From Labilibacter sediminis (GTDB lineage: Bacteria; Bacteroidota; Bacteroidia; Bacteroidales; Marinilabiliaceae), in the NCBI RefSeq assembly GCF_005877885.1, contig NZ_VCHY01000001.1, positions 124,001 through 188,000 of the forward strand: 64,000 bases of DNA, written 5' to 3'. Positions 2,490-48,776 of the stretch are shown in pieces; within the stretch, counting starts at the first letter, position 1, and each line of letters starts with the position of its first letter. Both the position numbers and the translations under genes were made by a program. The notes beneath the pieces were generated by a model. It did no database searches. It was not told the DNA's origin and saw only the letters and a list, made by a program, of their open reading frames with translations.

Positions 2490-2509
2490 CCAGCCTGCCG
2501 GCTGGCAGG
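2490..2509. repeat. 20-bp micro-palindrome A
   Basis: CCAGCCTGCCGGCTGGCAGG, two overlapping palindromes (CCAGCC/GGCTGG and CCTGCC/GGCAGG). The matching repeat copy at 11161 reads straight through from GTTAGAAAACC to ATTACGTAATG without it (apart from one C/T change at the edge), so this is a precise short insertion. Confidence 0.8.
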
Positions 2510-2944
2510 CATTACGTAATGAAACTACTGTCAATCAAGGCGTAAACTAAGTTGTTTCAACTCACCATAACGGAGCTATGCATCGTCTCAACATGTCCTT
2601 GATTGTTTAGTGCCTGATTATTGCATCGTTCAGCATAGCTTAAGCAAGCTTAGCTCTGCCTTCACTTATCGCAATAATTGTACTTTCATTCCTCATTACG
2701 ATGTTCTAACACATAATTCCATCTAACTAATATTGTTTTGCCAAACAGGCTTTCTTTTTGCTTGATCAAAAAGAAACAAAAAAATCAAGTTCAATTCATC
2801 CTTCAGCCCACCTCCTTGTTGAATCTATTGCCGTCACACATTCCTTATTCACCCGCATTCAACTGCGTCGCGCTATTACCGGCCCGGGCCAATTGAACCG
2901 GCCAACACACATTTTTATCGAGATAGAACTAAAATACCTGAAAT

Positions 2945-3264
2945 CAGAGCTGTCCTAAATAATTGGTGCTTCGCCCAAACCAGACTTACTTTTTGTTCTT
3001 GATGACAAAAACTAAGGAAAAAACATCAAGGCTGCTTTAAAAATAACGTTCTTATTTGCATAAAGATCAAGTGCGGCCGGACGATCTTCGAGCAAAGCTC
3101 TCAGCTTCCTGGTCTCACTAAATCTTTATTCAAAACAAAAGTAATTTTTAAAGAGGCCGTTTACTTGCATACTGCAAAATAACCCCCAGCCTAAACAAAC
3201 GATTACAAAACACTGTTATCTAAACATTTAAATAAAAACGACATAAACATTTAGGACAGATGTG
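2945..3264. mobile_element. 320-bp MITE, copy 1
   Basis: The ends are CAGAGCTGTCCTAAAT and, inverted, CACATCTGTCCTAAAT (14 of 16 identical). It is flanked by the direct repeat ACCTGAAAT (2936-2944 and 3265-3273), a 9-bp target duplication. The same target is uninterrupted in the repeat copies near 11950 and 28075 (there ACTTGAAAT), which serve as empty sites. It carries no transposase. A second copy lies at 38944-39265. Confidence 0.9.
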
Positions 3265-3325
3265 ACCTGAAATAGTTAGCTACTCGGTTTTACTTTTCAA
3301 AATGTCTTAGGAATCCGGGTTAAAA

Positions 3326-3633
3326 GTTTTACCATCAAATAAGATGGTGCTACTATTTTGACAACAAGAACTTAGATGAGTGATAACTGCCAAGAATATG
3401 AAATTTTGCACTTATCGTTTCATATTTGATTTAATTACTTGGTTCTATTCCTTCTTATTAAAAAAGGATAAAAAAGTCATAAATCGTAATAATGAACAAC
3501 TATAAAACTACCAGATATATGTCAATAATTATCTTCGCAAAGACGTATAAACTTTGCCGAGAAACAAGCTTAACTATTTCGGCTGTTCCAACTGATATAT
3601 TTTAGTTTCATAAACAAATCATTTAAAGGATAT
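3326..3633. other. Intergenic, no supported gene
   Basis: AT-rich sequence after the end of the dispersed repeat. A weak stem ACCATC/GATGGT lies near 3330-3350. No coding signal stands up: the plus-strand frame from about 3400 is interrupted by stops within roughly 36 codons. Confidence 0.4.
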
Positions 3634-3668
3634 AAAAAAAACCTCTGATAATTAGAATTTATCAGAGG
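3634..3668 (-). terminator. Rho-independent terminator of the 118-aa protein gene
   Basis: CCTCTGATAA (3642-3651) pairs with TTATCAGAGG (ending 3668), followed on the minus strand by eight U from the A run at 3634-3641. It sits 10 bp past the stop of the small secreted protein gene. Confidence 0.9.
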
Positions 3669-3678
3669 CTGCAATTTA

Positions 3679-4035
3679 TTACCTGTTTATACATTTAGCT
3701 CTTGTTTCCTTATCATAGGCCTTCAATTCCTTTAATTTCTTCCCTGTGAGTGTTTTAAGTAAATTAAAAAACTCCGCATTGACCTCTGCCATTTTAGCTT
3801 GTCTCTGTTCTTTGGTAATAGAGCCGGCATTCATTTGTTTCTTAAGAGTATTTGATTCCTTACTTTTTTTAGTGAAAGCCTCTGAAAGACTTTCTTGTTG
3901 ATCTTCATCCAGCGAATATTCGGCAGCTATTGTCGAAACATAACACTCTCTGACCTTGATGAACTTTTCATTTTTTTGTGCATTCACTCCAATTGTTGCA
4001 AATGCCACCACAATTAATAAAATATACTTTTTCAT
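3679..4035 (-). CDS. Small secreted protein, Spy/CpxP-like in character
   Basis: The 118-residue product has a signal peptide (residues 1-19, ending GVNA-Q) and a mature part that is almost entirely helical and charged. Features are EYSLDEDQQESLSEAF, a KKQMN segment, ITKEQRQAKMAEVNAEFFN and a C-terminal KELKAYDKETRAKC. The LDEDQQ and ITKEQRQAKM pattern recalls periplasmic LTxxQ/Spy-type chaperones, but this is only resemblance and the family is not recognised. It lies 83 bp downstream of the sulfatase at 4119-5522 with a hairpin between, and has a strong terminator, so it ends this transcription unit. Its link to glycan use is unknown. Confidence 0.8.
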   Translation of the reverse strand: MKKYILLIVVAFATIGVNAQKNEKFIKVRECYVSTIAAEYSLDEDQQESLSEAFTKKSKESNTLKKQMNAGSITKEQRQAKMAEVNAEFFNLLKTLTGKKLKELKAYDKETRAKCINR

Positions 4036-4053
4036 ACTTCTTGTTTTTATTTT

Positions 4054-4088
4054 AACCTGAGTTCGACATAAAATTTTGGATTCAGGTT
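4054..4088 (-). terminator. Possible terminator or attenuator hairpin after the sulfatase
   Basis: AACCTGA (4054-4060) pairs with TCAGGTT (4082-4088) with a 21-nt loop. On the minus strand it is followed by AAAATAAAAACA rather than a pure U run, so termination would be partial. Confidence 0.45.
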
Positions 4089-4118
4089 ATTTTAATAAAT
4101 ACGCTATAATTTGATACA

Positions 4119-5522
4119 TTATTTTGGTTGAGTCAATTGATATTTCCTGTCATACAAATCCACTTGTTCACGTCTCCACTTATTCCCCTCCAGGTATAGA
4201 ACCTGTGGACGAGACACATCCCAATCCCCTAATTTCTTTAGCATACGCTTCACTATTTCCAGATTCTGCTCCGACACATCATTCTGCTCTGCCAGATCCT
4301 CTGCCAGATTGTAAAGCATTGGTAAACGGTCAGGCATACGCACCAATTTCCAATCACCCTCACGTATACTGGCACTAATTGTAAATCGCCACAACATTTC
4401 TTCATGTGGACGTATGGAATTTTCTCCATTAACAAATGGGAAAATATTAACACCATCCACCTTATCTTTTGAAGGTATTGTTCCACCTGCCATTGCGACA
4501 AATGTGGGTGTCAAATCCAGGCTGGAGATGGGGTAATTGTATTCTACACCTGCTTTTAACTGTTCCGGCCAGCTCATCACAAAGGGTACTCGGATACCGC
4601 CTTCCAAAAGTGTTCCTTTAGCTCCTCGTAAAGGCATGTTTAATGAAGCATTGTGATGACATGGCCCACCATTATCACTGAAAAAGACAACAACTGTATT
4701 CTCATCTATCTTTTGTTTTTTGAGCTCTTTCATAATTCGACCTACATTCACGTCCAAACGATGTACCATAGCACAATAAGTGCGTCGTTTCTCATCTTTT
4801 ATATGTGCATATAGCTTCAAATCCTCTTCCGTTGCCTGCATTGGTGCATGAGGCGCATTGAAAGAAGCATACAGGAAAAATGGTTCATCTTTGTGCCGGC
4901 GAATAAAATCCACACATTCATCCCCTTTATTATCGGTAATGTAGGTTATTGGCTGAGGCTCTTTGTAGTTACAAAGTATCTTATAAGGATAAGGTTTTCC
5001 TTTAGCATTGGTTGGAAAATAATTATGGCCTCCTCCCAGATAGCCCCAAAATTCGTGAAAGCCTCTTTTTAAAGGATGAAAATGTTCTACTTCTCCCAGG
5101 TGCCATTTACCTATTAAACCATTGACATATCCGAGTTCTGCCAATCGATCGGCAATAGTGGTTTCATCAACCGGTAAACCAACAAAGTTCTCATCAAACT
5201 GTGGTAATTCTCTTTCATCGACTATCGGATTATTATCAAATCCAAAGCTGACCTGGTTACGTCCGGTCATTAAACCGGCTCTTGATGGTCCGCAAACCGG
5301 TGCAGACACATAGCCCTGTGTAAACGTGACACCAGACTGAGCCAAGGCATCGATATGAGGTGTTTTGATTTGGGTACTACCCGTAAATCCCACATCTCCA
5401 TACCCCAGATCATCGGCCAGTATAATGATAAAGTTTGGTTTATTTTCCTTTTCAGGTGTCTTTGCATTAATCCCCAAGTTGAGAATAATGGTGAAAATTA
5501 TTGTGAGAGATAATTTATACAT
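4119..5522 (-). CDS. S1-family sulfatase
   Basis: A 467-residue secreted sulfatase of normal family length with signal peptide to about residue 20. The formylglycine motif is C77-G-P-S-R81, and the metal ligands D37-D38 sit in ILADDLGYGD. The second metal site is FFSDNGGP, typical of the arylsulfatase A-like branch, and GKWHLG near residue 140 supplies the usual Lys/His pair. Substrate specificity cannot be read by eye. It is last in a four-gene operon: the GH2 gene upstream ends 13 bp before this start. Sulfate release presumably occurs in the periplasm or on the surface; no lipobox is seen. The SAPVCGPSRAGLMTGR segment shows it is distinct from the other ten sulfatases here. Confidence 0.93.
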   Translation of the reverse strand: MYKLSLTIIFTIILNLGINAKTPEKENKPNFIIILADDLGYGDVGFTGSTQIKTPHIDALAQSGVTFTQGYVSAPVCGPSRAGLMTGRNQVSFGFDNNPIVDERELPQFDENFVGLPVDETTIADRLAELGYVNGLIGKWHLGEVEHFHPLKRGFHEFWGYLGGGHNYFPTNAKGKPYPYKILCNYKEPQPITYITDNKGDECVDFIRRHKDEPFFLYASFNAPHAPMQATEEDLKLYAHIKDEKRRTYCAMVHRLDVNVGRIMKELKKQKIDENTVVVFFSDNGGPCHHNASLNMPLRGAKGTLLEGGIRVPFVMSWPEQLKAGVEYNYPISSLDLTPTFVAMAGGTIPSKDKVDGVNIFPFVNGENSIRPHEEMLWRFTISASIREGDWKLVRMPDRLPMLYNLAEDLAEQNDVSEQNLEIVKRMLKKLGDWDVSRPQVLYLEGNKWRREQVDLYDRKYQLTQPK

Positions 5523-5535
5523 GTCTGATCTTTAT

Positions 5536-8007
5536 TTATTCTGATTTTATGGTTAACTCAACTGTTTGAAGACCTTGTCCATTTACTTTTAGTGTAATAT
5601 CACCTTTGGCTTTCAATGATTGAACCGTCACTACAAGCTGTCCATTAAATGCCTTCATCGTAGGCTTGTGGAACATCTCCAATGAAGTTGCATCTCCATT
5701 ACAGACTGCTTTAAATTGTCCTGCCCCCGAAACTTCGAAAATCAGCTGATTTTGAGCCTGAGGACAAAGATTACCGTCTTTATCTACCACAGAAACTGTG
5801 ATATAACTTAAGTCCCTCCCATCTGCTTCTATTTCGTTACGGTCTGCACTTAATTCGAAATGGTGTGGCTCTCCGGCCGTGTGTATTTCTTTTTCAGCCG
5901 CAGGTTTTCCATAATCATCAAAAGCCACAACTTTAATGGTTCCCGGTTGGTATTTTACATCCATCCACATCAGGCGGTAACGTTCCTGTTTGCTTTTATT
6001 TTTTGTTTTTGTTTGAACGCCTTGTGATACTCCATTAACGAATAGCTCGGCACTATTATAATTGGTATATACAAATACAGGTGTTATTTGACCTTCACGA
6101 CCTTCCCAGTTCCAATGTGGCAACACATGCAAGGTTTCATCTTTCGTGTTCCAGCGACTACGATACAGGTAGTAACGATCCTTGGGTAAACCAGCCAAAT
6201 CGCAGATACCAAAATAAGAGCTCCTCGATGGCCAGAATTGATCAAAAGGTGTTGGTTCGCCCAGGTAATCAAAACCAGTCCAAACAAATTCACCAATCAC
6301 CCATGGTTTATCATCCTGTAAAATAAAATCGTCATCAGGCAAGTTAGACCAACCACAATATTCCAGGTCGTATGATGAACATTGGTATGTATCTCCATAA
6401 AAAGCTTCCTTCTGTGCTTTCAAAGCATTATAATCGTCTTTAACTTCAACAACCGGGAAACGATAAAAGCCTCTTGAACTCAATGTTGAAGCTGTTTCAG
6501 AACCCAGAAGCATACCCTGCGGAAACTTCTCATAAGCTTCTTCATACAGGTGCACCCTGTAATTTAGCCCCGGAATATCCATAACTGCACCAAAACCACT
6601 TTTCATGGTAGCTTTAACCTGGTCCATACCCACCGTTACCGGTCGTGTGGGGTCTTCGCGATGAAAAATATCCTGTAACCAACGAGCACGAGCCACACCC
6701 TCTTTACCTAGCTGGTCAGGTACTTCATTGCCAGAACTCCACATAACGATACATGGATGGTTACGTGTGGCATGCACCAGGTTCACCACATCTTTTTCCG
6801 CCCACTCATCAAAGAACAGGTTATAACCATTTTTCATCTTTGGTTTTTTCCACTCATCAAAGCTTTCTGCCAAAAACAAAAAACCCATTTCATCACATAA
6901 CTCCAGCTGTTCCAATGAAGGCATATTATGGGAAGAACGAATAGCATTACAGCCCATATCTTTCAGTATAGTCAATTGACGTTTTAAGGCCGCTTTATTA
7001 ATTGCAGCTCCCAGAGGACCTAAATCGTGATGAAGACACACACCTTTGAACTTCGTCACCCTATCATTCAACAAAAAGCCTCCTTTATCTGCATTATATT
7101 CTATTTTGCGAATACCAAAACGCACTGTTTCTTTGTCCTTCAGCATATCATCATGATATAGACTTAACTCGGCATAATAGAGATTAGGCGTATCTATATC
7201 CCAAATTGCAGGATTTTTGACAATGAGTTCCTGTTCTATTTCATCCCCTGTTATTTCATCCGATTGACTTTGGGCAACAATGTTTCCTTCAGCATCTTTA
7301 ATAACTGCTTTAACCAGAACTCCATTACCATTAAGTTTGCTCTTAATATTTATCGTTGCATTTTCGTTTGACACCCGGGGTGTGGTAATAAAATGTCCCC
7401 AATGCTTGAATGACACTTCATCTTTCACTACCAGTTGTACCTTTCTGTATAAACCTGCTCCCGGATACCATCGCGATGAATAGGGCAAATTCTCTAAACG
7501 CACAGCTAATAAGTTTTCTCCTTTTTGAAGGTATTGGCTTATGTCAAAGTAAAAATAGTTATAGCTATTTTTCCATTCGCCAACTTTGGTTCCATTAATA
7601 AAGACTTGTGGCTGACTCATGGCTCCATCAAATGTCAGCAGCACCTTTTTACCTAATTGATAATCCGGAACCGAAAAGAATTTTCGATACCAGCCCACAC
7701 CAACGTGTGGCAGAGCACCTGTCCTACCGGTTTTTTCAGTAGCAATCTTTTCATTGTTTTGCCTGATAATACCACTTTGCTTATCTACTTCTTCATCAAA
7801 AGGCCCTTTGATGGCCCAGTCATGTGGAACTGTTACATTTTCCCAATCAGCGGTATTGCAATTCATCTTTTCAGCACCATTTACGTCCTTATTAATAAAT
7901 TGCCAATTGGTGTCCAATAACTCAACTCTTCGTGAAGCACCATCTTGATGGGCGCAAGCAACAATGACCTGACTCAAAACAATTAAACTAAGTATTACGT
8001 TTTTCAT
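5536..8007 (-). CDS. GH2 beta-galactosidase-like lipoprotein
   Basis: An 823-residue glycoside hydrolase family 2 protein. The N-terminus ends in IVAC (Cys18), a plausible lipobox, so outer-membrane anchoring is likely. Order: sugar-binding domain (GWYRKF, about 105-200), immunoglobulin-like domain (about 200-310), TIM barrel (about 315-610), then C-terminal sandwiches including YTNYNSAELFVNGVSQG, typical of the DUF4982 type. The acid/base is E428 in MWSSGNEVPD and the likely nucleophile E504 in MLLGSETAST. GEFVWTGFDYLGEP is the conserved barrel-end segment. It is much shorter than LacZ and lacks its C-terminal domain. It is flanked within 15 bp by sulfatase genes, suggesting alternating desulfation and exo-cleavage. 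The exact sugar is not certain. Confidence 0.9.
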   Translation of the reverse strand: MKNVILSLIVLSQVIVACAHQDGASRRVELLDTNWQFINKDVNGAEKMNCNTADWENVTVPHDWAIKGPFDEEVDKQSGIIRQNNEKIATEKTGRTGALPHVGVGWYRKFFSVPDYQLGKKVLLTFDGAMSQPQVFINGTKVGEWKNSYNYFYFDISQYLQKGENLLAVRLENLPYSSRWYPGAGLYRKVQLVVKDEVSFKHWGHFITTPRVSNENATINIKSKLNGNGVLVKAVIKDAEGNIVAQSQSDEITGDEIEQELIVKNPAIWDIDTPNLYYAELSLYHDDMLKDKETVRFGIRKIEYNADKGGFLLNDRVTKFKGVCLHHDLGPLGAAINKAALKRQLTILKDMGCNAIRSSHNMPSLEQLELCDEMGFLFLAESFDEWKKPKMKNGYNLFFDEWAEKDVVNLVHATRNHPCIVMWSSGNEVPDQLGKEGVARARWLQDIFHREDPTRPVTVGMDQVKATMKSGFGAVMDIPGLNYRVHLYEEAYEKFPQGMLLGSETASTLSSRGFYRFPVVEVKDDYNALKAQKEAFYGDTYQCSSYDLEYCGWSNLPDDDFILQDDKPWVIGEFVWTGFDYLGEPTPFDQFWPSRSSYFGICDLAGLPKDRYYLYRSRWNTKDETLHVLPHWNWEGREGQITPVFVYTNYNSAELFVNGVSQGVQTKTKNKSKQERYRLMWMDVKYQPGTIKVVAFDDYGKPAAEKEIHTAGEPHHFELSADRNEIEADGRDLSYITVSVVDKDGNLCPQAQNQLIFEVSGAGQFKAVCNGDATSLEMFHKPTMKAFNGQLVVTVQSLKAKGDITLKVNGQGLQTVELTIKSE

Positions 8008-8022
8008 TTTCCTGAGCTCTTT

Positions 8023-9459: not shown

Positions 9460-9491
9460 TACTGTGAGGTTTTATTTTATTTCCAGCACGA

Positions 9492-11003: not shown

Positions 11004-11150
11004 GCGTTTATAATTTTCAATTTTTGCATGCCTGCCCAACGCAGGCGGGGAACTTCCAAGAAAATTTGATCATTGACTACGTCGATCTTACGATTCACTT
11101 GTGTGTAAACTTGAATGATTAAATTTTACATGGTCGTTTCATATTTATAT
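11004..11150 (-). repeat. Conserved leader element, copy 2 (upstream of sulfatase)
   Basis: Minus strand: ATGAAACGACCATG, TTTAATCATT, a loop with CGTAAGATCGACGTAG, AATGATCAAA, then TTCTTGGAAGTTCC. A 19-bp palindrome is inserted here, then ATG (11029) opens a nine-codon frame ending in ATGA at the sulfatase start. The loop is nearly identical to copy 4 at 62608-62729, while copies 1 and 3 have different loops. Confidence 0.75.
11031..11049. repeat. 19-bp micro-palindrome B
   Basis: Reads CCCGCCTGCGTTGGGCAGG on the minus strand. Leader copies 1, 3 and 4 lack it: copy 4 joins GTTCC directly to ATGC. It is an insertion inside an otherwise conserved leader. Confidence 0.75.
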
Positions 11151-11570
11151 TTTAACCCGCAATATGCGTTAGAAAACCTATTACGTAATGAAACCACTGC
11201 CAATCAAGGCGTAAACTAACTTATTTCAACTCACCATAGCGGTGCTATGAGTCGTCTCAACAAGTCCTTGATTGTTTGCACTTTCATTCCTCATTACGAT
11301 GTTCTAACACATAATCCGGGTTTAATTTAAACTCGTTTATCTAAGTTCAAAAGTATGCAATACGGAACCAACAATCGGACACAAATTCAGCAATCGCTAC
11401 CTTATATTTAGGAGTGCCCATTTTGTGTTAGTTTTTAGATATTTTTGTGTTAGCTACAACTTGACATTCCGGGTTTAACACCAATATAAGCATGAACTGA
11501 GCTTCATAATAAAATTAGTATAATTGCAACTTGCTTTCATCCACAACCTCATTCGATGATTCAGTAAAAA

Positions 11571-11625
11571 TCCCCACCCAAAGGATGGGGATTTGAAACA
11601 GCCCCTACAAGGGGATGAACTACAA
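11571..11625. other. Two GC-rich hairpins in the repeat island
   Basis: AAATCCCCA...TGGGGATTT (about 11569-11597) and CCCCTACAAGGGG (about 11602-11614) form adjacent strong stems. There is no clear U tract on either strand and no gene ends here. Confidence 0.45.
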
Positions 11626-11773
11626 ATACTGAAGTGAATTTCTTGAAGCTTGGGACCTTGTCCCAAACCCTACTTCATTTTTTTAATAAGATTATTGCTT
11701 CGTTCGGCATAATTCAAGCAAGCTTGATTCTGCTCTCTCTTAACGCAATAATTGGCATCGCTCCAAAAAGAAA

Positions 11774-11793
11774 CCTGCCTTCCGTCAGGCAGG
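11774..11793. repeat. 20-bp micro-palindrome C
   Basis: CCTGCCTTCCGTCAGGCAGG, 7-bp stem with a 6-nt loop, between AAAAAGAAA and CAAAAAAATCAAG. Repeat copy I at 2769-2785 has AAAAAGAAACAAAAAAATCAAG with no palindrome, an exact 20-bp difference. Confidence 0.8.
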
Positions 11794-12118
11794 CAAAAAA
11801 ATCAAGTTCAATTCATCCTTCAGCCCACCTCCTTGTTGAATCTATTGCCGTCACACATCCCTTATTCACCCGCATTCAACTGCGTCGCGCTATTATCGGC
11901 CCGGGCCAATTGAACCGGCCAACACACATTTTTATCGAGATAGAACTAAAATACTTGAAATAGTTAGCTACTCGGTTTTACTTTTCAAAAAGTATTAGGA
12001 ATCCGGGTTGAAGGACTCTTGCCATCACCGGCTCGGTCTCTTGCCCTGGCCTACCCGCTTTGATTTACAGCTCCAAATTTGATTTCCCAAAATATTATGG
12101 CTTAGCCTAAGATTCTGA

Positions 12119-26191: not shown

Positions 26192-26207
26192 CCTGCCTGC
26201 CGGCTGG
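26192..26207. repeat. Micro-palindrome D, split by the IS4-type element
   Basis: CCTGCCTGCCGGCTGG here and, after the element, CCGGCTGGCAGG (27794-27805). Removing the element and one 8-bp duplication restores the 20-mer CCTGCCTGCCGGCTGGCAGG, a palindrome with two mismatched pairs. Confidence 0.8.
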
Positions 26208-27793
26208 CCATAGCCGTCAAGCTAAGCTGTTTTTAATAAATTAAATCGCTGTATATGTGAAAGATCGCCTTTTTTTGTTTCTCTATACAGCTTTTTCTCT
26301 GACATGGTCAATATTACCGAAAGCCATTGATGCATTAGTTCTTTGGCTTGTATTATCTTGCATATTTTATCAGGGAATTCCGATATAAATTTGTAGTACT
26401 TCCATATACTCAGAGTTTTTTGTTTTTTACTTTGTTTTGATAACCATTTGTCAGCCACTTGAAATATTTTCCAATTTGCCAGAACCCAAATTAATCCTGA
26501 CAGTAATACGCACTCGAACCTATGGATTTTCATTTTCTTTACCTTATCAATGTTTACTATTGATTTCCAGGCTTTAAAAATCAATTCTATCTGCCACCTC
26601 ATGCTGTATATCTTATAAATATCTTGTGCTTGAATTTTATTCTTAGGCACATTAGTAATGTAGAGATTTAGCTGTGAGCGCAACTTAGTTTCCTCCGAAA
26701 CTTTGCATCCGATGCTCTTTGTGTTTTTAGTGGTTTTCTTTAACCTTTTTTGCGCAGCTTTCTCTTCGCAAACGGAAACAACCAATCGGCAAGGTAATTG
26801 AGCTTTCTTGCCAACCAGCACGTCAACCTCCATATAAGGTAAATCGTAGCGCTTCAATTTCTTATATATTTTCTTCAGGTCAACGAGTTGTTTGCTGTGT
26901 GGATCGTATAGGTTTACCTGAGAAGGTAGTCTGTTCAGGAAAAATGCTTCCCTTTTTATTATCTCGGACATATATGTTGTTGTAACATATCCCAGATCCC
27001 TTACCAATAGCTCTCCTTTTTTTACGTTTTTGATGCTTTCTTTGGTATCCTCCTGATCATTCCTACATCCACTTGTAAGCTGTATATCAACTTGGTTACC
27101 AGTTAATAAATCGAATTCATATTGTATACTGATCATTGATTGGGTATTTGTTGCTCCCCCATGCCCCTTATATACAGATCGGTATTCCTGCGGAAGTCCA
27201 AATCGGGTAGAATCCCGTAACCGACATGAAGAAAAGTGACTGCTGCTTCCATTTGCCTCTGTGATGTTTAATTGCTGTCCAACCAACTTATCTAATATAG
27301 ATTTTAAGAAGCATACCGCTTGCGCATTAAAACGTTCATCGAGTCCTTGTTTAGAAATAGACTCGCCATAACTAGCTTCAAAATGTCTGGCAAGATCCTC
27401 TAAGCTCAACAGTGTACCTTTTGTGCTGTTTGAAACTAAGAGGTCAAGAAACTTCTTGCCATCAATTAAAGAAGACCGCTTGACAAAACCACTTTCTTTT
27501 GCCAATTCCTCTACTTTATCTTCACTCAAGGCTAAGTTTAAATTTGCTTCTAACATATTGATAAAGGATTTAATAAATCTATTGATTTTCTTCTGATTCT
27601 TCTCCTAAAAGTGATTGATATTTAGTATCTTCATGCATGAAGGGCGCAGTAATGCAATACTAAAAATCGCCCTTCATTTTACATAAAAAACAACTTACAA
27701 TGGAGAATAATACTGACGATTCCCCCAAGGGGAATTATATCCTCCTATCAAATTTAATTTCAACATCTTATCTTTTTAGCTTGACGGCTATGG
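26208..27793 (-). mobile_element. Intact IS4-family insertion sequence (1586 bp)
   Basis: The inverted ends CCATAGCCGTCAAGCTAA are identical for 18 bp. The target duplication is CCGGCTGG (26200-26207 and 27794-27801), lying inside a micro-palindrome. A single full-length transposase gene fills most of the element. A possible hairpin CGAAGGGCG/CGCCCTTC-type pair (GAAGGGCG near 27640, CGCCCTTC near 27670) lies upstream of the transposase. Confidence 0.92.
26222..27556 (-). CDS. IS4-family DDE transposase
   Basis: 444 residues, intact. The catalytic triad fits D115 (RLRDST), D187 (VRDLGY) and E324 (WQIELIF). The YREK signature is Y317-x2-R320-x3-E324-x6-K331, diagnostic of IS4. A helical N-terminal region (1-100) precedes the RNase H-like fold, and a long beta-rich insertion lies between D187 and E324. 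The gene reads the same way as the surrounding operons, so transcription from upstream could enter it. Confidence 0.94.
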   Translation of the reverse strand: MLEANLNLALSEDKVEELAKESGFVKRSSLIDGKKFLDLLVSNSTKGTLLSLEDLARHFEASYGESISKQGLDERFNAQAVCFLKSILDKLVGQQLNITEANGSSSHFSSCRLRDSTRFGLPQEYRSVYKGHGGATNTQSMISIQYEFDLLTGNQVDIQLTSGCRNDQEDTKESIKNVKKGELLVRDLGYVTTTYMSEIIKREAFFLNRLPSQVNLYDPHSKQLVDLKKIYKKLKRYDLPYMEVDVLVGKKAQLPCRLVVSVCEEKAAQKRLKKTTKNTKSIGCKVSEETKLRSQLNLYITNVPKNKIQAQDIYKIYSMRWQIELIFKAWKSIVNIDKVKKMKIHRFECVLLSGLIWVLANWKIFQVADKWLSKQSKKQKTLSIWKYYKFISEFPDKICKIIQAKELMHQWLSVILTMSEKKLYRETKKGDLSHIQRFNLLKTA

Positions 27794-28131
27794 CCGGCTG
27801 GCAGGTCGTGCATTCAATGTTCATGACGAAGTTCTAAAACATGATTCCATCTAACTAATATTGTTTTGCCAAACAGGCTTTCTTTTTGCTTGATCAAAAA
27901 GAAACCTGCCTTCCGTCAGGCAGGCAAAAAAATCAAGTTCAATTCATCCTTCAGCCCACCTCCTTGTTGAATCTATTGCCATCACACTTCCCGCATTCAA
28001 CTGCGTCGCGTTATTACCGGCCCGGGCCAATTGAACCGGCCAACACACATTTTTATCGAGATAGAACTAAAATACTTGAAATAGTTAGCTACTCGGTTTT
28101 ACTTTTCAAAAAGTATTAGAAATCCGGGCTA
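27794..28131. repeat. Composite dispersed repeat, copy III (right part)
   Basis: After the insertion element the sequence resumes with TTCTAAAACATGATTCC and the long conserved segment found at 2705-2944 and 11762-12008, ending GAAATCCGGG near 28128. It lacks 14 bp (part of TTATTCACC) found in copies I and II. It includes micro-palindrome E. It fills the space between the insertion element and the terminator of the next sulfatase. Confidence 0.8.
27905..27924. repeat. 20-bp micro-palindrome E
   Basis: Same 20-mer as palindrome C (CCTGCCTTCCGTCAGGCAGG) at the same position in the repeat. Absent from repeat copy I at 2775. Confidence 0.8.
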
Positions 28132-39308: not shown

Positions 39309-39339
39309 CTTCTGTATATAGTGCAGTGTTGTATAGCAT

Positions 39340-40269: not shown

Positions 40270-40454
40270 GAAATAAATATTTAAGTTATATAAATTCGAT
40301 GAAACGAAAATAATTTATACCTAGCTTCAATACAGACACATATCAGAACTATAATGTCTTAAATCGAGCAATGTATGATTTGTGTTATTCAATGTCATTT
40401 TTAAGACAAAGCCTATGCACTTAACTGTGAATCGGGTAGATGGCCATTGAGGAA

Positions 40455-40513
40455 ATAAATCTCACTGGTGCACCTCCCACAGCACCGTACATACGGATCC
40501 GTATACGGCGGTT
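40455..40513 (-). ncRNA. Group II intron domains V and VI
   Basis: The catalytic hairpin CCGTATACGG-AT-CCGTATGTACGG with the GTGGGAGG segment after it, followed by a stem ending near 40440. Recognised by similarity to the end of bacterial group II introns; RNA structure not computed. Confidence 0.7.
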
Positions 40514-40514
40514 C

Positions 40515-41929: not shown

Positions 41930-42018
41930 TTAACGCCGTCAACTAAGGTTCTGCCCTTCCTCGAAAAAAAAATCGAAACTGAGTGCTATGGCGTCTTTCA
42001 TCTAACTAAGCGAGTAAA

Positions 42019-43323
42019 TCATAAATAACCATCTAATTCTAGATTAAGCTTTTGGATTGTTTTAGAAAGATGGTTCACCCTACTTCGTAAATAATTTTCA
42101 CGGTTACCATCAATTATATATGGATCAAAAGCTATTTTTTCGGTAACCATTTTGTAAAATATTGTAGCTATTTTTTTAGCTGTTGCGACTATAGCCTGTC
42201 CTGATCCAGATTTTGATTTTTTTGATCTTAAATAATCTCCAAATGGATTTTTAGCATTCCATAGACCATTAGCAGCTTCTCTAAATGCCTGACCTGCTTG
42301 ATTTTTTCTTTTGCGAACCTTTGAGGATAATACTTTCCCTCCAGATATCTTATTGTCGGGAACCAGATTCAACCATGACAAAAACTGTTTGACCGTCGTA
42401 AACTTTTCTTTTACATTCGGCCCTATTTCTGAAAACACTGTCAGTGCAGTAGTTTGTTTGTAACCATATATTTCGGTGACATCCACTCCGTAAGCATTGT
42501 AAAGAAGTTGAGATACGTTAAATATGGGTTGTTTATTTTTTGACGGACGGTATGGAACTTTTACTTCTTCTACCTCAGGTGATGCTAATAACTTAACCAC
42601 TCTTTCACTTGCTTCATCAACCTTTCTTAGGTGTTGTTCCAACTCGCGATACCTGTCTCGCGCCATCTGTAAACAAAACAACTGCTCTTCTCTCCAATTG
42701 CCCTCTAATGACTTAATTAGGGTTTCTTCGGTGCATTTAATTCTATGATGCCGAAGTTGAGATAAAACTAAAGGGTTTCTTTCTCCTGCAAGTATAGCAT
42801 TTACAATTTTAGAACCAGTTTCGCCATTGATATCGTTAATTACATCGTGTAATTTAATGTTCATACAAACCATTGCCTTCTGCATATGTTGCGTTTCTTT
42901 TGCCATATCACGTATGATTTGCTTTCTCAAACGGACATATGTACGAAGTTCTCTTGTAAGATTATCGGGTTGAAAACAAGCTGTGAGATACCCATTAGCA
43001 TGAAGCTCCTGAAGCCATTGGGCATCTAAAACATCGGTCTTCCTTCCCGGCACATTTTTTACATGATAGGCATTGACTAAATATACCTCTATCCCATAAT
43101 CCAATAATATTGTATACAAATGATACCAATAAGAACCTGTAGATTCCATAGCAACTGTTTCTATACTTAGGGAAACAAGCCAATTTGCTAACTCATGTAA
43201 ATCTCTAGTAAATCCTTTAAAGCTCCTTACTGGAGTGGTACTCTTTTCTGGAGAAACTGCAACATAATGAAGGTTTGAAGCAATATCAATACCTGCCGCA
43301 TTTTTGTTTATTACCTTTGCCAT
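42019..43323 (-). CDS. IS110-family DEDD transposase/recombinase
   Basis: 434 residues, apparently intact. The RuvC-like N-terminal domain has D13 (AGIDIA), E60 (MESTGSYW), D97 and D100 (GRKTDVLDAQW). A coiled-coil middle (about 175-250) leads to the Tnp2-type domain with TVFSEIG, FLSWLNLVPDNKISGGKVLSSK and AFREAANGLW, the latter region carrying the family serine. These enzymes are guided by a structured RNA from the element's own flank and do not use inverted ends. It lies inside the group II intron, 90 bp upstream of the RT fragment. Confidence 0.93.
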   Translation of the reverse strand: MAKVINKNAAGIDIASNLHYVAVSPEKSTTPVRSFKGFTRDLHELANWLVSLSIETVAMESTGSYWYHLYTILLDYGIEVYLVNAYHVKNVPGRKTDVLDAQWLQELHANGYLTACFQPDNLTRELRTYVRLRKQIIRDMAKETQHMQKAMVCMNIKLHDVINDINGETGSKIVNAILAGERNPLVLSQLRHHRIKCTEETLIKSLEGNWREEQLFCLQMARDRYRELEQHLRKVDEASERVVKLLASPEVEEVKVPYRPSKNKQPIFNVSQLLYNAYGVDVTEIYGYKQTTALTVFSEIGPNVKEKFTTVKQFLSWLNLVPDNKISGGKVLSSKVRKRKNQAGQAFREAANGLWNAKNPFGDYLRSKKSKSGSGQAIVATAKKIATIFYKMVTEKIAFDPYIIDGNRENYLRSRVNHLSKTIQKLNLELDGYL

Positions 43324-43490
43324 AACTTAATTGTTTTGCAGGTAATGTTCAATATGCTTAAGGGTAAATATTCTTTCATAAGAGATCAAAGTCATCAATT
43401 GGATATTTAAAAGCATATATGCCTATACTGCTGATAGGGTTCTAAACACCAATGCCATACAAGGTCTGAACATTACCTTTTTTTTTTAAG
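43324..43490 (-). ncRNA. Candidate bridge (seek) RNA of the IS110 element
   Basis: This 5' non-coding end lies just upstream of the recombinase, where IS110-group elements encode their guide RNA. GGTAATGTTCA (43477-43467, minus strand) can pair with TGAACATTACC (43351-43341), enclosing about 115 nt with smaller stems such as GCATATATGC. The outer stem is perfect over 11 bp. The element end appears to lie in the poly-A/T region near 43478-43490. Guide loops were not resolved by eye. Confidence 0.55.
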
Positions 43491-43897
43491 GTACCTCTTT
43501 ACTTACAAACTACTCCACGTTAGATTATTGAATATGCCGCAAATGCGGCTGGAGTACTGCTGACTGCTCATGACAAACCTTTTCCGACCGTATATCATAC
43601 CTGTTGTTTCAATGCGCCCATGAGATCTCCCGTGGTAAGGTAAATAACTTTCATTCCATGTACCCACATCATTTACACTCCATTGCCCGTGTAGTATTAG
43701 GACTTTGTTTTGTTTAGCAAACTCATCCACAACAGATATGCCTGATGATGTTCGTGCTCCTCGGGTCGGAACTTTGCCGCCGGCTTCCTTCAGGTTATAC
43801 CTCACGATAAGCACCCTTGCCTTGAGCTAGTGGTTGGCTACTACAAACCCCCACAGCGGACTTTCACCGCCTAGCTATTTTCCATGCACGGCACACT

Positions 43898-43929
43898 AAA
43901 AAAGGAGAACCCTTGGGTTCTCCTTTTTT
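43898..43929 (-). terminator. Rho-independent terminator used as intron insertion site
   Basis: AAAAAAGGAGAACCC pairs perfectly with GGGTTCTCCTTTTTT around a 2-nt loop. It lies 25 bp past the stop at 43955. The group II intron begins one base beyond it. Confidence 0.95.
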
Positions 43930-43954
43930 ATCTCATTCGATATGTGGGAAATAA

Positions 43955-44737
43955 TTACTTTATCATCACCTTCTGCGAAGAAACTGTACCATCTATTGTT
44001 TTTACCTGTAAAACATACACTCCTTGAGGTAAATCACTTACATTAATAGGCTCAGTCGTTACACTTTGATACACTTGTTTACCTGTAACACTAATAAGCA
44101 CAACACCCTCTATTTCAGCATCAGAATAAATATTGATTACATCTGAGGTTGGATTTGGGTAAATTGAAATAACATCCTGTAAAGTATTGCTATCAATGTC
44201 GGTAGGTGTACAAGTAGTACATGTTAAAGATACATTATCGAAGCTTGCACCCTGATTACCCCAAACTTTTGTAAGCCTGAATCCATAATTTTGGGTAGTC
44301 GCTGCAGTATACGACACCGTTAGTTCTTGCCACTCTCCTCCTGTTCCTTTGATTGGTCCAGCAACAACAGCCGTTCCAGCAACTACATCAATTACTTCCA
44401 GTTTCAAAGAACCTATCTGTCCTGCCGCATCGGGCTTAATCCAAATTTTATACTCGTAAGTTTCACCTGCCGTTAATTCGTATACCCTTTGAGCAACAGC
44501 AAAATCCAATGTTCCTCTCTGCATTTTAACATACCAGTTGGAGTTTTCAGCTCCAACACCAGCTTCATTAGTGGCAGTAAATGTATATTCATTACCCCAG
44601 GTTTGCCAATAATCAAATCCGGTAATATCCTGACCATCTGTATACCCATTTTCAAAATCTTCTGAGTAAATAGTTACCTGAGCAAACATACCTGAGCAAA
44701 TAGCCATTAATGTAAATAATAGTAAGATTTTTTTCAT
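43955..44737 (-). CDS. Secreted carbohydrate-binding-like protein with type IX sorting tail
   Basis: Start set at 44737 (MKKILLLFTLMAICSGMFA-Q), 260 residues; the upstream 20 codons are an artefact of the open frame. Residues about 20-175 resemble a CenC-type (CBM_4_9) jelly-roll: YSEDFENGYTDG, YEYKIWIKPDAAGQ, EWQELTVSYTA, GASFDNVSLTC. The tail is a type IX sorting domain (ISIYPNPTSDVINIYS, VVLISVTGKQVYQS, LPQGVYVLQVK, SSQKVMIK). Probably displayed on or released from the cell to bind the substrate. The terminator is followed by the intron. Confidence 0.87.
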   Translation of the reverse strand: MKKILLLFTLMAICSGMFAQVTIYSEDFENGYTDGQDITGFDYWQTWGNEYTFTATNEAGVGAENSNWYVKMQRGTLDFAVAQRVYELTAGETYEYKIWIKPDAAGQIGSLKLEVIDVVAGTAVVAGPIKGTGGEWQELTVSYTAATTQNYGFRLTKVWGNQGASFDNVSLTCTTCTPTDIDSNTLQDVISIYPNPTSDVINIYSDAEIEGVVLISVTGKQVYQSVTTEPINVSDLPQGVYVLQVKTIDGTVSSQKVMIK

Positions 44738-45117
44738 CATAATTAATTTAAAGATTACACTGATTATTAATATCAATTCAAAAATAACGAATACCATAAG
44801 GCATATCTTATCACCAATTACCTAACAATCACCAGATATTAACACATTTTCGACAAACACCCCTTAAGTCATTCATAATCTATGTGCATAAAATGAACAA
44901 CCGCGATTTTAACTATTTTATTTAGACATTTTTTACTTCTTTTTTCCATTACTCACGATGGAGCTTTACACTAAAACCAAGAGCTTTGATAATACACCAA
45001 TTAAACATCAAAATGCGCCATATAATTATATTCTTATCAGCTTGCTTATCATCATCGACTTATTCCCTAGCTAATGCAATAAGTCTCTTCTTCAAGCAAA
45101 CTAATAATATTTAAAAT
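44738..45117. other. Promoter region of the type IX cargo gene and flank of an insertion element
   Basis: A TATTTTTG box at 44779-44786 is the only regulatory candidate. 45109-45117 is the left target duplication (ATTTAAAAT) of the IS4-type element. No gene seen. Confidence 0.5.
44779..44786 (-). promoter_or_regulatory. Candidate -7 promoter box
   Basis: TATTTTTG on the minus strand matches TAnnTTTG, about 42 bp upstream of the 44737 start. No clear -33 element. Confidence 0.35.
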
Positions 45118-46542
45118 CACTATTAACCGACTAAAGTCGGAATTCATGAAATTATCTTCTGTAACGCCTATAAATTGGGCGTTCTTTTTTCAATTTCAAA
45201 TCAGACCCCATTCCAATTTAACTTTAATTGGCCCGGAGAACCACCAACCTGCTTTTTAAAACTCCTGTTTGTGTTACGTAAAAGCTCTGTTAACTCAAGC
45301 ATACTTATCAGATGTATTCTCACAAGTGAGGCGACCACAGAAAATGCCTTCTTCGTTTTTGCCTTCTTTTGAATGACGGTCATTAAAAGCTGTGCAATTA
45401 GTGTACACCAAACTTGCGTCCGTATAGTATTCTCATTTTCACCATAGAAATAGTGGAGCTGGAAGTTTTGCTTCATCTTTTTGAAAAGAAGTTCAATACC
45501 CCAGCGTTTCTTGTATAGAAATGCCACTTCCTCAGCTGTGATTTCAAAATTGTTGGTTAAGAACTCAAAGTAGCGGTTCTGCTCATCTTGATAAGCTACT
45601 TTTCTTAGCCTTAATAACTTCTTAATCTTATACTGTTTACCGCCATTTTCATTCTCCGGATAGTACTCCAACTCTATAGTTTGATCCTTTAGAACTTTAG
45701 CAACTCCTTTCTTCCGATAACCTGTTCTATGTGTTTCGATCACTGTGAAAACAGCATTCTTCTTTAAGCGAGTGACAAAATAAACCTGCTGGTTAGTCCA
45801 CAATGCAAACTGTTGATAATAATTGTATGCCTTATCGAAAACTATCATGCTGTGGGATATAAGTTCCAAACTCTTGAGAAAGTTTTTGTCATGCACCTTA
45901 GCTGCCGTAACCTTTACAAATCTACCGACTGATTGTACGGCATCAATAAGCATATGTACCTTAAGTCCACCTTTCTTTTTGCCATCTCCTTTAGGGTTGC
46001 GTCCTACACCTTTAAGTACATCACTGAATAAACGAATTGTAGTAGAATCAATCAAAAGCACCTCTTTGAAAGTCAATCCATAAGTTCGGCTGTCCGACAA
46101 AAATGACTGGTATTTATTAACCAATTCGAAATATAACGATTCGAAAAATCGATGGTCACGATTTCGTAATCCATCTCCTGCTGTACTCTTTGCAGGGTGC
46201 CTTATCAAGTCCTAAGTGATTTAATTTTCCTCCTAAAGCACGCAGTCCTTCACAGGTTTCCGTCATTGAATCACAACGACTAAAAATTCCAAACAGCATG
46301 GTAATAATATGTGTTCTGGTTTTAAAAGCCTTGTAATAGCGGTCACTATCATGCTGTTTAATTAATGATGGTATGTCTGCAACTTTAAGCAAATCTATTA
46401 TCTGTTTGAATATCGGCTGACCGACAAAATTTATTTCTTTATTTTTACTCATGTTGTAAAAAGTTTCGCAAAATCAATTTACAACTTTGAGGGGAAACCA
46501 TTAGGAAGTACCCTCTTTTAATAATTTAGTCGGTCACTAGTG
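45118..46542 (-). mobile_element. IS4-type insertion sequence with frameshifted transposase (1425 bp)
   Basis: The ends CACTATTAACCGACTAAA and CACTAGTGACCGACTAAA (inverted, 16 of 18) are flanked by the 9-bp direct repeat ATTTAAAAT (45109-45117, 46543-46551). A hairpin AACGCC/GGGCGTT followed by CTTTTTT at about 45161-45187 is a terminator-like structure near the left end. Its ends do not match the MITEs or the element at 26208. Confidence 0.9.
45201..46452 (-). pseudogene. IS4-type transposase, frameshifted
   Basis: The N-terminal part (46452 to about 46198: FVGQPIFKQIIDLLK, TRTHIITMLFGIFS) runs out of frame at GCACCCTGCAAAG. Removing one C gives KAPAKSTAGDGLRNRD and rejoins the long frame to 45201. 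That part has DDE residues in LLIDSTTIRL, MIVFDKAYNYY and YKKRWGIELLFKKMK, with the Y..R...E......K signature. A one-base gain in a C run suggests recent inactivation. IS4-type elements are not known for programmed shifting, so I call it broken. Confidence 0.85.
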
Positions 46543-46677
46543 ATTTAAAATACTAAAGTCTCACCTTGAAATTCAATTGGTATTATTGTTTTATGTTTTT
46601 TTTAAAAAACTCGGACTTTAATCTAACTTTTTAATGACAGAATACAGCATAGGGTCAATAGCCATAACTATAAGGAC

Positions 46678-46723
46678 AAAAAAAATGCTTATAGTCGTGT
46701 GATATTACACACTACCATAAGCA
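46678..46723 (-). terminator. Rho-independent terminator of the EF-hand sulfatase gene
   Basis: TGCTTAT (46686-46692) pairs with ATAAGCA (46717-46723), continued inside by GTGTG/CACAC, with the A run at 46678-46685 forming the U tract. It lies 27 bp beyond the stop at 46750 and still separates this gene from the insertion element. Confidence 0.88.
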
Positions 46724-46749
46724 AGTATCTTTGTGACCATTAAGGCTCC

Positions 46750-48501
46750 CTATTCTTCTTTATGCGCTTTATATTCAGACCAGGAAAGCTTTCCGTCCTT
46801 ATCTGTGTCTGCTTCGGGGTTCATTTTAAAGTATTTATCTTTCCAGATCTCACCGCCTGTTTTCTTATCATTGAAAGACGGAGTCGGTTTCTTTCTATCT
46901 TCGTTAACTGATTGAGATGGTTTATTCTCTTTTTTAAGGAGGTTAAACATCTGTTCTTTAAGCTGCTTTTTAATTGTAGCATACTCAGGAAGATCAGCTA
47001 AATTATCCCACTCGTATTCATCGACCCTATGGTCATACAACTCTTCTGCTCCATTGCCATAATGTATATACCTGAAATCTTTAGAACGTACAGACAAATG
47101 CTGTTCTGCCGGATTCTTTGATTTCCAACTTGAGATTATAGTAAGTGCAAGCTCAGGTCCTTCCCATGCCTTTGTTTGGGGATTCACCATAAAAGGCTTT
47201 AGGCTATGGCCATCCAACTCAGCTCCTTTATCGTTGATCAATGTAGAACCCTCAAGTTCACAAAAATCCTTAATGGTTGGATAAATATCAATTAAAGATA
47301 CAGGATGATCCACTTTACTGCCCGCATGCTTAGCATACTCCGGATGGCGAATAAGCAAAGGTACACGTGTTGTTTCTTCCCAAAGACAGTATTTAAATAA
47401 GTAATCCTTCTCCCCCATATTATAACCATGATCACTAAACAGAATTACGATAGTATTATCTTTAAATTTACTATTATTGATGCTATTCATTACACCGCCT
47501 ACCATATCATCAGCAAAAGCAACGCTGGCCAAATAGGCCTGAATATATCTGCGTAATCCTTCTTCGGGAGTAGAATACCCTTGTATTAACCCTTTGAATG
47601 CAGTACGTCCACGAGGGTCTTTGTTCAAAGTATTTGCACTAAGCTTACAGTCGTCTTTGTCATTTTCTTTGTACACCGGAATCTTCACCTCATCCAAAGG
47701 AAACATATCAAAATACTTTTGCGGAACCACAAGCGGCGTATGAGGACGAATAAAGCCCACTCCAATAAAAAACGGTTCATCACTGTCACTTCTTTCCAAT
47801 TGGGTCATTTTATTTTTAAACCAATCCACACTTTTCTCGTCGGTCATTTTATCGCGATCAGTACTACTCGCATAATGAAATGGTGTTTGGTTGCCCCATT
47901 TGCTATTGTACCATCCTGTATAACCGGGCGCATTGGCCGTAGCAGGAACAGAAGGCACATCAGACAGGGGTGCAAAAGTGGCATCCAGAGCACCCAGTTC
48001 AGCCATTTGTTTTGGATTAGAAGGATGAGCCACCGTCTTTTTACCATTGTACGCCAAAGGGCCATAATCAGCATAAACGCCCATCTCATCCCAAGCACCC
48101 GGTTTGGTGTTATGTAAAACTTTACCACTCTGATAGGTATTATACCCATTCTCATTTAAATACTCCGGAAGTGTTTTTGAGTTGATCAGCACTTCATTTT
48201 TTAACCAGTTATTAAATCCCCAATTAAGCGATGTTTGAGGTGCCACACCAGTCATAAAACTGGCCCTAGATGGCATACACACCGGACAGTTACTATGGGC
48301 ATTGGTAAAAAGCACACCTTCTTTGGCAAGCTTATCAATATTAGGTGTTTGAGCCTGCGGATGCCCTCCCATTACCCCTACATAATCGTTAAGGTCGTCA
48401 AGGACAATCATAATTACATTAGGCTTTTCTTTTGCTTTTAGTTGTGTCACTATGCTAAAAGCAAGAACTGCAACCGCTATTATTTTTATTAAACTCTTCA
48501 T
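46750..48501 (-). CDS. S1-family sulfatase with C-terminal EF-hand-like motif
   Basis: 583 residues, signal peptide to about 23 (KA-KEKPN). Motif C75-M-P-S-R79, ligands D35-D36 (VLDDLNDY), distal LFSDHGYNMGEKDY. Close paralogue of 22956-24512. Beyond the core (about residue 525) a lysine-rich linker leads to DTDKDGKLSWSEYKAH, which has EF-hand spacing: D-x-D-x-D-G-x-L-x-x-x-E. A calcium-dependent tether or stabilising tail is an inference. Last gene of the 46-62 kb operon group, with its own possible promoter box (48523-48530). Confidence 0.92.
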   Translation of the reverse strand: MKSLIKIIAVAVLAFSIVTQLKAKEKPNVIMIVLDDLNDYVGVMGGHPQAQTPNIDKLAKEGVLFTNAHSNCPVCMPSRASFMTGVAPQTSLNWGFNNWLKNEVLINSKTLPEYLNENGYNTYQSGKVLHNTKPGAWDEMGVYADYGPLAYNGKKTVAHPSNPKQMAELGALDATFAPLSDVPSVPATANAPGYTGWYNSKWGNQTPFHYASSTDRDKMTDEKSVDWFKNKMTQLERSDSDEPFFIGVGFIRPHTPLVVPQKYFDMFPLDEVKIPVYKENDKDDCKLSANTLNKDPRGRTAFKGLIQGYSTPEEGLRRYIQAYLASVAFADDMVGGVMNSINNSKFKDNTIVILFSDHGYNMGEKDYLFKYCLWEETTRVPLLIRHPEYAKHAGSKVDHPVSLIDIYPTIKDFCELEGSTLINDKGAELDGHSLKPFMVNPQTKAWEGPELALTIISSWKSKNPAEQHLSVRSKDFRYIHYGNGAEELYDHRVDEYEWDNLADLPEYATIKKQLKEQMFNLLKKENKPSQSVNEDRKKPTPSFNDKKTGGEIWKDKYFKMNPEADTDKDGKLSWSEYKAHKEE

Positions 48502-48522
48502 TTCGATAAGTTTTACAATTTA

Positions 48523-48530
48523 CAAAGTTA
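48523..48530 (-). promoter_or_regulatory. Candidate -7 promoter box for the EF-hand sulfatase
   Basis: TAACTTTG on the minus strand is a full match to TAnnTTTG, 22 bp upstream of the start codon. The -33 position is not convincing. Confidence 0.35.
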
Positions 48531-48755
48531 CATAACCAGGTTCTGAATAAGAATTCAAATTTTAACAAATAACCTCAGTTTGATTAAAATTTACAGTCTC
48601 AGTTTTTAGTAAATAATTGATATAGTATGAATTTAAGAAGCACAGCAAGCAATGGAGATAAAATTCATTGCCATAGATCGATTATTTACTAATAAGCATA
48701 TGTTACCGCTTATAAACAACAATTTTCTTCGTCCTATATATTTACCATAGCCAGC

Positions 48756-48776
48756 CCTGCCTGTTGGGTATGCAGG
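48756..48776. repeat. Micro-palindrome F (degenerate, 21 bp)
   Basis: Begins CCTGCCTGTTGGG and ends ATGCAGG, matching the outer arms of the 20-mer family. No empty-site comparison is available in the window. Confidence 0.5.

Follow-up and report, generated by a model that had tools for sequence, protein, structure and literature searches.

Filled and empty sites of a 20-bp GC-rich palindrome in Labilibacter sediminis and its occurrence in genomes of many bacterial phyla

Single-strand transposition by enzymes of the Y1/HUH type would give precise units, hairpins and no duplication of the target, and no target-site duplication (TSD) is expected from Y1 chemistry. In fungal mitochondria, GC clusters and double-hairpin elements occur as GC-rich hairpins that have entered AT-rich DNA and RNA genes. 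In cyanobacteria, SDR5 and other very small mobile repeats, palindromic and with filled and empty sites, were reportedly described by Elhai in 2008. SDR5 itself is presented, in an excerpt of PMC4390886, as a very small module that inserts precisely into another repeat, the HIP1 octamers. Repetitive extragenic palindromes (REPs) mobilised by REP-associated tyrosine transposases (RAYTs, also TnpA-REP) bear a GT[AG]G or CGTC tag according to excerpts of PMC2817692 and PMC3733652, and the CGTC-tagged REPs appear in the excerpt of the latter as small hairpins present in Bacteroidetes, for which that part of the source reports no dedicated transposase. Excerpts of PMC6006769 give a Bacteroidetes subclass (2.6) of TnpA-Y1 with atypical structures, and Rickettsia palindromic elements (RPE) are, according to excerpts of PMC2229807, Rickettsia-specific units of 105-146 bp found both in frame in conserved protein genes and between genes. 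Here we analysed a stretch of 64,000 nucleotides from Labilibacter sediminis (contig NZ_VCHY01000001.1 of assembly GCF_005877885.1; C1:124001-188000 of the home genome, G000, 6.36 Mb in 372 contigs), hereafter the window, in which GC-rich palindromes of 19-21 bp are precisely present in some copies of a host sequence and absent from others. Precise presence or absence of this kind was seen for three contexts in host repeats and, in another genome, for one conserved gene.

Two GC-rich palindromes of the window, PAL-A (CCAGCCTGCCGGCTGGCAGG) and PAL-B (CCTGCCTTCCGTCAGGCAGG), align without gaps and belong to one 20-bp superfamily, CCWGCCTNYCGKCWGRCAGG, with CCTGCCTGCCGGCAGGCAGG as its perfect form. 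With up to 3 mismatches the 20-mer gave seven strand-matches in the window (at 2490, 11774, 26192 and 27905; 0 expected from 100 shuffles) and 89 in the whole of G000, 43 forward and 46 reverse, palindromic places being scored on both strands, while the pattern read backwards gave 0; the copies are far above chance. A sequence-only reading of the window had listed six copies, among which these four stand. The one at 11031 is a different, 19-bp hairpin; the one at 48756 is unsupported, as reading its surroundings gave no empty counterpart, no wider search was made, and we do not count it. The sequences listed at 26192 and 27794 are two halves of one unit split by a DDE insertion sequence. The view that the copies are only intergenic held for 48 of the 49 distinct superfamily places in the scanned G000 DNA (window, L015-L058 and L102-L141), though open reading frames (ORFs) of at least 100 aa make up 79% of it; the sole exception, 11774, lies in a 110-aa ORF within the repeat itself, which we take for spurious. 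In G000 the units occur at the left and right sites of a 170-bp element, in a leader repeat, in the PAL-B repeat and at solitary sites. As a separate observation, other hairpins of the type CCCCAxGC...GCxTGGGG were seen at L053:5226-5244, where the hairpin directly adjoins an IS200/IS605-like gene, at L062:365-383 and in three copies in C1 1-448000.

All three filled and empty comparisons proposed within the window are real, with differences of 20, 20 and 19 bp. The unit at 2490 reads GAAAACC, 20 bp, CATTACG against GAAAACC-TATTACG in the empty element at 11154-11323, a difference of exactly 20 bp. The PAL-B copies at 11774 and 27905, identical to each other as had been stated, read AAAAAGAAA-CCTGCCTTCCGTCAGGCAGG-CAAAAAAATC against AAAAAGAAA-CAAAAAAATC at 2776/2777, again exactly 20 bp. 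For 11031, the comparison is sound against the empty leader copy at 62696; the other two proposed partners, at 1427 and 53964, share homology but carry CATATGGAACTC, which makes the site less exact there than had been stated. The leader site is empty (GAGTTC^CATG) in eight leader copies, namely 62696 and seven more in the fetched G000 DNA, and holds exactly 20 nt in three copies, forward in L031 and L056 and reverse in L034. It is also filled in L053, and at 11031 in the window it bears the different 19-mer; three further rows of the pattern search, with 6, 6 and 17 nt between the flanks, are not palindromes. One site hosts both orientations and different palindromes. Because different units in different orientations lie at one nucleotide position, independent insertions are a better explanation than the loss of an ancestral part.

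The palindrome was also found inside genes. Among 123 exact units, 42 lie in ORFs of at least 80 aa (many of these ORFs are unverified; ORF cover 86%, named loci of at least 1 kb), and in 19 of these the reading is xLPAGRQx. One case is clean, the RecG gene of a Yanofskybacteria genome (G434), in which an in-frame 21-bp insert gives AQS[RLPAGRQ]GYQT and makes the protein 7 residues longer than the 1gm5 chain. A search of 75 genomes for RecG matched 74, and the 29 best relatives were fetched. The seven residues are absent in 28 of the 29, the nearest three being 83-85% identical in the alignment, and the last, L323, carries another insert of 21 bp at that very codon boundary. The RecG insert, at 21 bp, is one longer than the units in the repeats (20 bp), so that the unit may be 20 bp with a spare base, or the in-frame length may have been kept by selection. 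In L231 and L262 the alignment was too unclean to size an insert, and these cases are not claimed. Together the 170-bp, leader-site and RecG comparisons support the idea of inserted cassettes too small to encode anything. Other in-gene sequences were observed alongside these. The same RecG gene in L250 has a second insertion relative to 1gm5, GC-rich and repeat-like, at about codons 525-570. An RluA-type pseudouridine synthase gene carries two units (L262:3413 and L262:3872), one of them flanked by CTTGTTTTA and TCG, which match the right site of the 170-bp element. A Collierbacteria RAYT-like gene has a different palindrome, CCTGCAGGGCCTGGCCCTGCAGG, twice in the open frame (L305:1428-1450 and L305:1750-1772), the second copy reading NPIDI-LPAGPGPAG-LEAYKYSSYG.

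Units lie in the D-loop of tRNA-like 5' fragments at L184:2127, L208:67, L273:2881, L280:30, L384:1513/1614/1715 and L387:12419. In L273 an intact tRNA-Asn begins 50 bp downstream of the start of the unit, and in L384 three unit-bearing copies 101 bp apart lie next to a copy without the unit. Interruption of intact tRNAs was considered and rejected: when the flanks were joined, ARAGORN found no tRNA across the junction at 125 sites and, in a set of 212 sites, found one at a single site (L370), L208 being too short for this comparison. The other tRNA-like sites look like 5' tRNA fragments. In L370, a viral contig, the unit at 2284 is in a tRNA-Met gene, about 45 nt in and by count in the variable-loop region, and the tRNA is still recognised by ARAGORN when the 20 bp are left in.

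The same sequence is present in many phyla. The PAL-A pattern (at most 2 mismatches) was found in 8 of 41 genomes, G000 counted, and in 4 of 9 of the same genus. In the class of the window, CCWGCCTNCCGKCWGGCAGG was present in 58 of 395 genomes and 33 of 197 genera, and the reversed control in 0. The exact perfect form is in at least 116 stretches of named species genomes from about ten phyla. Counted by hand from their titles, the listed stretches comprise Patescibacteria types (44), Bacteroidota (29), Omnitrophota (12), Nitrospirota (7), Ignavibacteria types (3), Verrucomicrobia/PVC (3), two each of Elusimicrobia, Planctomycetes, Chloroflexi and Deltaproteobacteria types, WOR-1 (1), Lindowbacteria (1) and eight unplaced; the absence of other phyla from the matches listed means little. 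In the phylum of a Collierbacteria carrier (G443), which we take to be Patescibacteria, the exact form was present in 65 of 286 genomes (reversed control 0/286), three of the 65 carriers being known beforehand (the centre G443, G435 and G444). G443 itself has 26 copies in 0.9 Mb, and the genome next to it in copy number has 23 in 1.2 Mb. Twenty carrier genomes had from 1 to 49 units each (at most 2 mismatches). The sharing between phyla may have come about by horizontal transfer. A viral collection of 2.9 million contigs held the exact palindrome in 33 stretches, and from contig matches alone there is no sign of viruses as the main vehicle.

We propose, with a probability of roughly 0.5, that the units are non-autonomous miniature mobile palindromes, REP-like, which move in trans, most likely as a single-stranded DNA (ssDNA) hairpin. 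A GC-rich hairpin sequence of about 20 bp would insert precisely and without a TSD, often into other repeats, and an HUH/Y1-type (TnpA/RAYT-like) or other ssDNA-acting enzyme would mobilise it, which need not be encoded by the carrier beside the unit. Gain would be the main direction of change, and the intermediate would probably be single-stranded. In favour of the proposal are copy numbers far above chance, the filled and empty copies of the 170-bp element, the leader site, the RecG insert and a two-sided change in one variant that keeps the hairpin. No TSD was detected at 123 sites, where matching flanks of 3, 4, 5 and 6 nt were found at 0, 0, 1 and 0 sites against 1.3, 0.6, 0.2 and 0.05 in shuffled flanks; shorter matches were slightly in excess (1 nt, 31 against 22.2; 2 nt, 15 against 9.8). 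The pooled flanks weakly favour A at -1 (46%, T 9%) and at -3 (41%, T 15%). Hairpin-primed templating had been offered as an option. Insertion points are not enriched overall at hairpin centres (117 sites; p=0.48 compared with random positions, 0.65 with local ones), and such a rule was rejected in general; the extreme tail is slightly heavier, a hairpin-centre score of at least 8 being reached at 4 of the 117 sites, against 0.5% of random and 1.8% of local positions, with L236, L186 and L287 as single striking cases. Since such features are what Y1/HUH transposition would give, a Y1-type enzyme is our best guess, which we hold at slightly less than even odds.

A REP-type transposase acting in trans, as suggested earlier, is only a possible mobiliser. 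In its favour, G000 holds one RAYT above the curated cut-off (L059, NF047646, 100.8 bits), all 8 palindrome-rich genomes of the class have a Y1 gene, and a Y1 match was found in 15 of 20 carrier genomes. G000 also has three other full-length Y1 proteins, two above the IS200/IS605 cut-off and one below, plus two partial matches. Several observations, the lack of a link in cis among them, weigh against both this suggestion and our proposal. The other five of the 20 carriers gave no Y1 match, including G453 with 43 units and G434 with the RecG insert, although three of these genomes come from metagenome bins and are perhaps incomplete. No unit lies within 1.5 kb of the RAYT of G000. A palindrome-like unit was found within about 1.5 kb of a Y1 gene at only 5 distinct loci of 66, pooling two criteria (at most 2 mismatches from the consensus, 2/36 loci; at most 4 mismatches from the perfect form, 4/66). 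The Y1 loci have 4 matches in 210 kb, or 0.019 per kb, which is the density of unselected G000 tiles (0.018) and lower than the 0.088 per kb of the named palindrome loci, whose own exact units were excluded. A RAYT match was seen at 1 of 116 palindrome loci, with a home-made profile built from few RAYTs of the class and perhaps blind to distant ones, and no RAYT gene was flanked by two inverted units among the 36 + 66 Y1 loci and the 116 palindrome loci examined. RAYT genes are only weakly associated with carriage in the class, matches (E<=0.001) being present in 47 of 58 carriers against 219 of 337 non-carriers (p=0.016, without phylogenetic correction), and strong matches in about 25 of 58 against 108 of 337 (p=0.13), the 47 and 25 being hand counts from a table. 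The units have no GTAG or CGTC tag and the 123 flanks no conserved tetranucleotide; in PAL-B, CGTC occurs in the loop only. Finally, for individual copies of the element the change may have been a precise loss and not a gain.

The alternative that survives best is capture without an enzyme, in which stable GC-rich ssDNA hairpin fragments from dead neighbours are pasted in at gap repair or template switching and selection keeps the harmless and in-frame ones. The slight variation in unit length (19, 20 and 21 bp), the missing TSD, the carriers without Y1 matches and the patchy presence in distant phyla would all fit it. Random capture predicts neither the reuse of one sequence, often exact over 20 nt, nor the repeated use of the same sites, and we consider this explanation unlikely.

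A less probable explanation is that one or two insertions of the palindromes took place and that since then they have only been carried with, or converted among, larger repeats. By eye, 24 of 36 PAL-A places (at most 2 mismatches) lie within this foldback element with inverted ends, most copies of which are on direct reading bordered by 5-bp repeats of the TTTAA type, a few being without them; because of these flanking repeats we regard the host element as similar to miniature inverted-repeat transposable elements (MITEs). The copies are numerous and nearly identical; a first look gave 211 candidate places in G000, 40 of which were scored. The fetched DNA held 59 distinct end-to-end copies, a set enriched by the fetching for filled ones. 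Among the 55 full-length copies, 45 are empty (core 169-170) and 10 filled (each a core of 170 plus 20 bp), the unit being in the right site (G[TC]TTTA^T) in eight and in the left site (ATC^TATT) in two. Four copies were left off the tree: one of 191 bp in which no unit was recognised, two filled ones of 92 bp that lack the middle, and one of 93 bp with a 21-bp variant. On that tree the filled label changes 10 times, five of the changes being forced by starred branches, against a mean of 9.4 for shuffled labels. As the filled copies are scattered like shuffled labels, repeated gain, loss or conversion is indicated rather than a single old copy. The mixture of filled and empty copies is also what gene conversion would give, and conversion may add to the spread within this family, while the 92-bp forms resemble a deletion between two palindromes. 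In the G075 region (L381 and L382), AATC follows 10 of 10 units and CGTCATTCCGAGCACCAGCGA, a CGTC-like repeat, precedes 5 of 10, so many units there seem to travel with a larger repeat. The units occur in several contexts within one genome, in reverse orientation and as different sequences at one site, and in RecG; recombination as the sole explanation is refuted by the RecG and leader-site results, so that the ground for refutation named in the earlier reading, palindromes following repeat recombination alone, does not apply, and recombination keeps a role in secondary spread. Under our proposal of mobile palindromes, units of the 170-bp family probably also spread or vanish through recombination between copies. 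As an observation of its own, one 170-bp copy sits between two RAYT gene fragments (C311:382427-382603, L014).

It is very unlikely that selection maintains the palindrome as a binding site or transcription terminator that the repeats had ancestrally and that some copies lost precisely. Its folding and position would suit a function: four 20-mers folded as single DNA strands gave hairpins of -5.6 to -8.0 kcal/mol, and 4 of the 5 forms folded were stronger than most of their shuffles (the 19-mer at 11031 folds at only -4.0 kcal/mol, with many shuffles as good). The variant CCAGCCTGTCGGCTGACAGG alters both sides of one pair, from CCTGCC/GGCAGG to CCTGTC/GACAGG, with the hairpin kept, and the places are mostly intergenic in G000. 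A functional site does not account for the two orientations and different palindromes at the leader site or for the in-frame unit in RecG, absent from nearly all the fetched relatives, and a terminator does not agree with TTTT being no commoner within 10 nt on either side of the units (21/123) than in local controls (151/965). An artefact of metagenome assembly or binning has practically no chance, as although the majority of the listed records are titled metagenome-assembled genomes, the flanks vary between records and the carriers include named strains, among them Maribacter halichondriae Hal144 (a complete chromosome), Winogradskyella echinorum, Salegentibacter, Mucilaginibacter, Aquiflexum and Longitalea.

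In comparison with the described systems, the units resemble RAYT-mobilised REPs and REPINs in being GC-rich hairpins of the 20-40-nt class with many, mostly extragenic copies in or beside other repeats; in contrast to these, the unit has no tag, no RAYT was seen flanked by it, and its sequence is near-identical across phyla. Like the CGTC-tagged REPs they are small hairpins for which no cognate transposase was found, but their sequence is different and the unit was by reading found inside CGTC-like repeats, in 5 of 10 cases in G075 and in the PVC bin L192. The likeness to SDR5 is one of behaviour; the target sites read in repeats are not HIP1 (GCGATCGC), and many phyla are involved. As in RPE there is in-frame insertion into a protein gene (RecG, one clean case), though of 20-21 bp. 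Lack of a TSD separates the palindrome from DDE-type MITEs. A derivative of IS200/IS605 would show no TSD and insertion 3' of a fixed short target; the palindrome has no TSD and in its flanks only the weak A-n-A preference. Fungal mitochondrial GC clusters differ in being organellar and of other sequences. The behaviour thus has precedents in REPs, SDR5 and RPE, and the new parts are the identity across phyla and the 7-residue gene insert. Searches of an open-licence literature collection without preprints gave no paper with the letters of the palindrome or of the peptide, and topic listings gave none whose title and abstract describe it.

The features of the window are collected in Table 1. 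The insertion sequence that breaks one unit has perfect 17-bp ends and, on direct reading, has duplicated its 10-bp target GCCGGCTGGC (26199-26208 and 27793-27802). It may be a palindrome-targeting insertion sequence. Insertion sequences that target REPs are already known, as stated in the abstract of PMC1525189. Elsewhere in the window there is a match to the Group II intron RNA (RF02001, 122 bits; 43640-43811, minus strand) near an IS110-type transposase gene (42019-43323, minus strand), and the window also holds a TonB-receptor/SusD gene pair and sulfatases.

Table 1. Palindromic units, their empty partner sites and the associated insertion sequence (positions in the window)
Feature	Position	Strand	Remark
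PAL-A unit CCAGCCTGCCGGCTGGCAGG	2490..2509	+	left site of diverged relative of 170-bp element
170-bp foldback element, left and right sites empty	11154..11323	+	partner of filled 2490
PAL-B unit CCTGCCTTCCGTCAGGCAGG, filled	11774..11793	+	
Empty PAL-B site AAAAAGAAA^CAAAAAAATC	2776..2777	no strand	
PAL-B unit, filled, identical to 11774	27905..27924	+	
Distinct 19-bp hairpin unit CCTGCCCAACGCAGGCGGG in leader-repeat site CATG^GAACT	11031..11049	+	
Empty leader site GGAGTTC^CATG	62696..62706	+	
Left part of PAL unit broken by insertion sequence	26192..26208	+	
Insertion sequence inside PAL	26209..27792	-	DDE_Tnp_1 ORF 26222-27556, 17-bp ends CATAGCCGTCAAGCTAA
Right part of the broken PAL unit; first 10 bp are duplicated target	27793..27805	+	
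Weak hairpin, 5-bp stem, sixth copy of the sequence-only reading	48756..48776	+	membership unsupported

More tentatively than for the type of enzyme, we suggest that a single palindrome of 20-21 bp could be a mobile element passed horizontally among bacteria in general, carried by more than one fifth of the sampled genomes of the Patescibacteria phylum as well as by many Bacteroidota, Omnitrophota and Nitrospirota, which enters repeats, tRNA fragments and the frame of a core gene (adding xLPAGRQ) by a RAYT-independent mechanism not yet described. Such an element would rank among the smallest moving units known, with one sequence across phyla that include the ultra-small Patescibacteria. With named strains among its carriers and with sites both filled and empty, it would serve as a defined probe of 20 bp for studying how REP-sized palindromes move and whether a transposase is needed. 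It would also be a route by which a core enzyme gains a 7-residue peptide, and the palindrome is a possible marker of DNA exchange between Patescibacteria and other bacteria.

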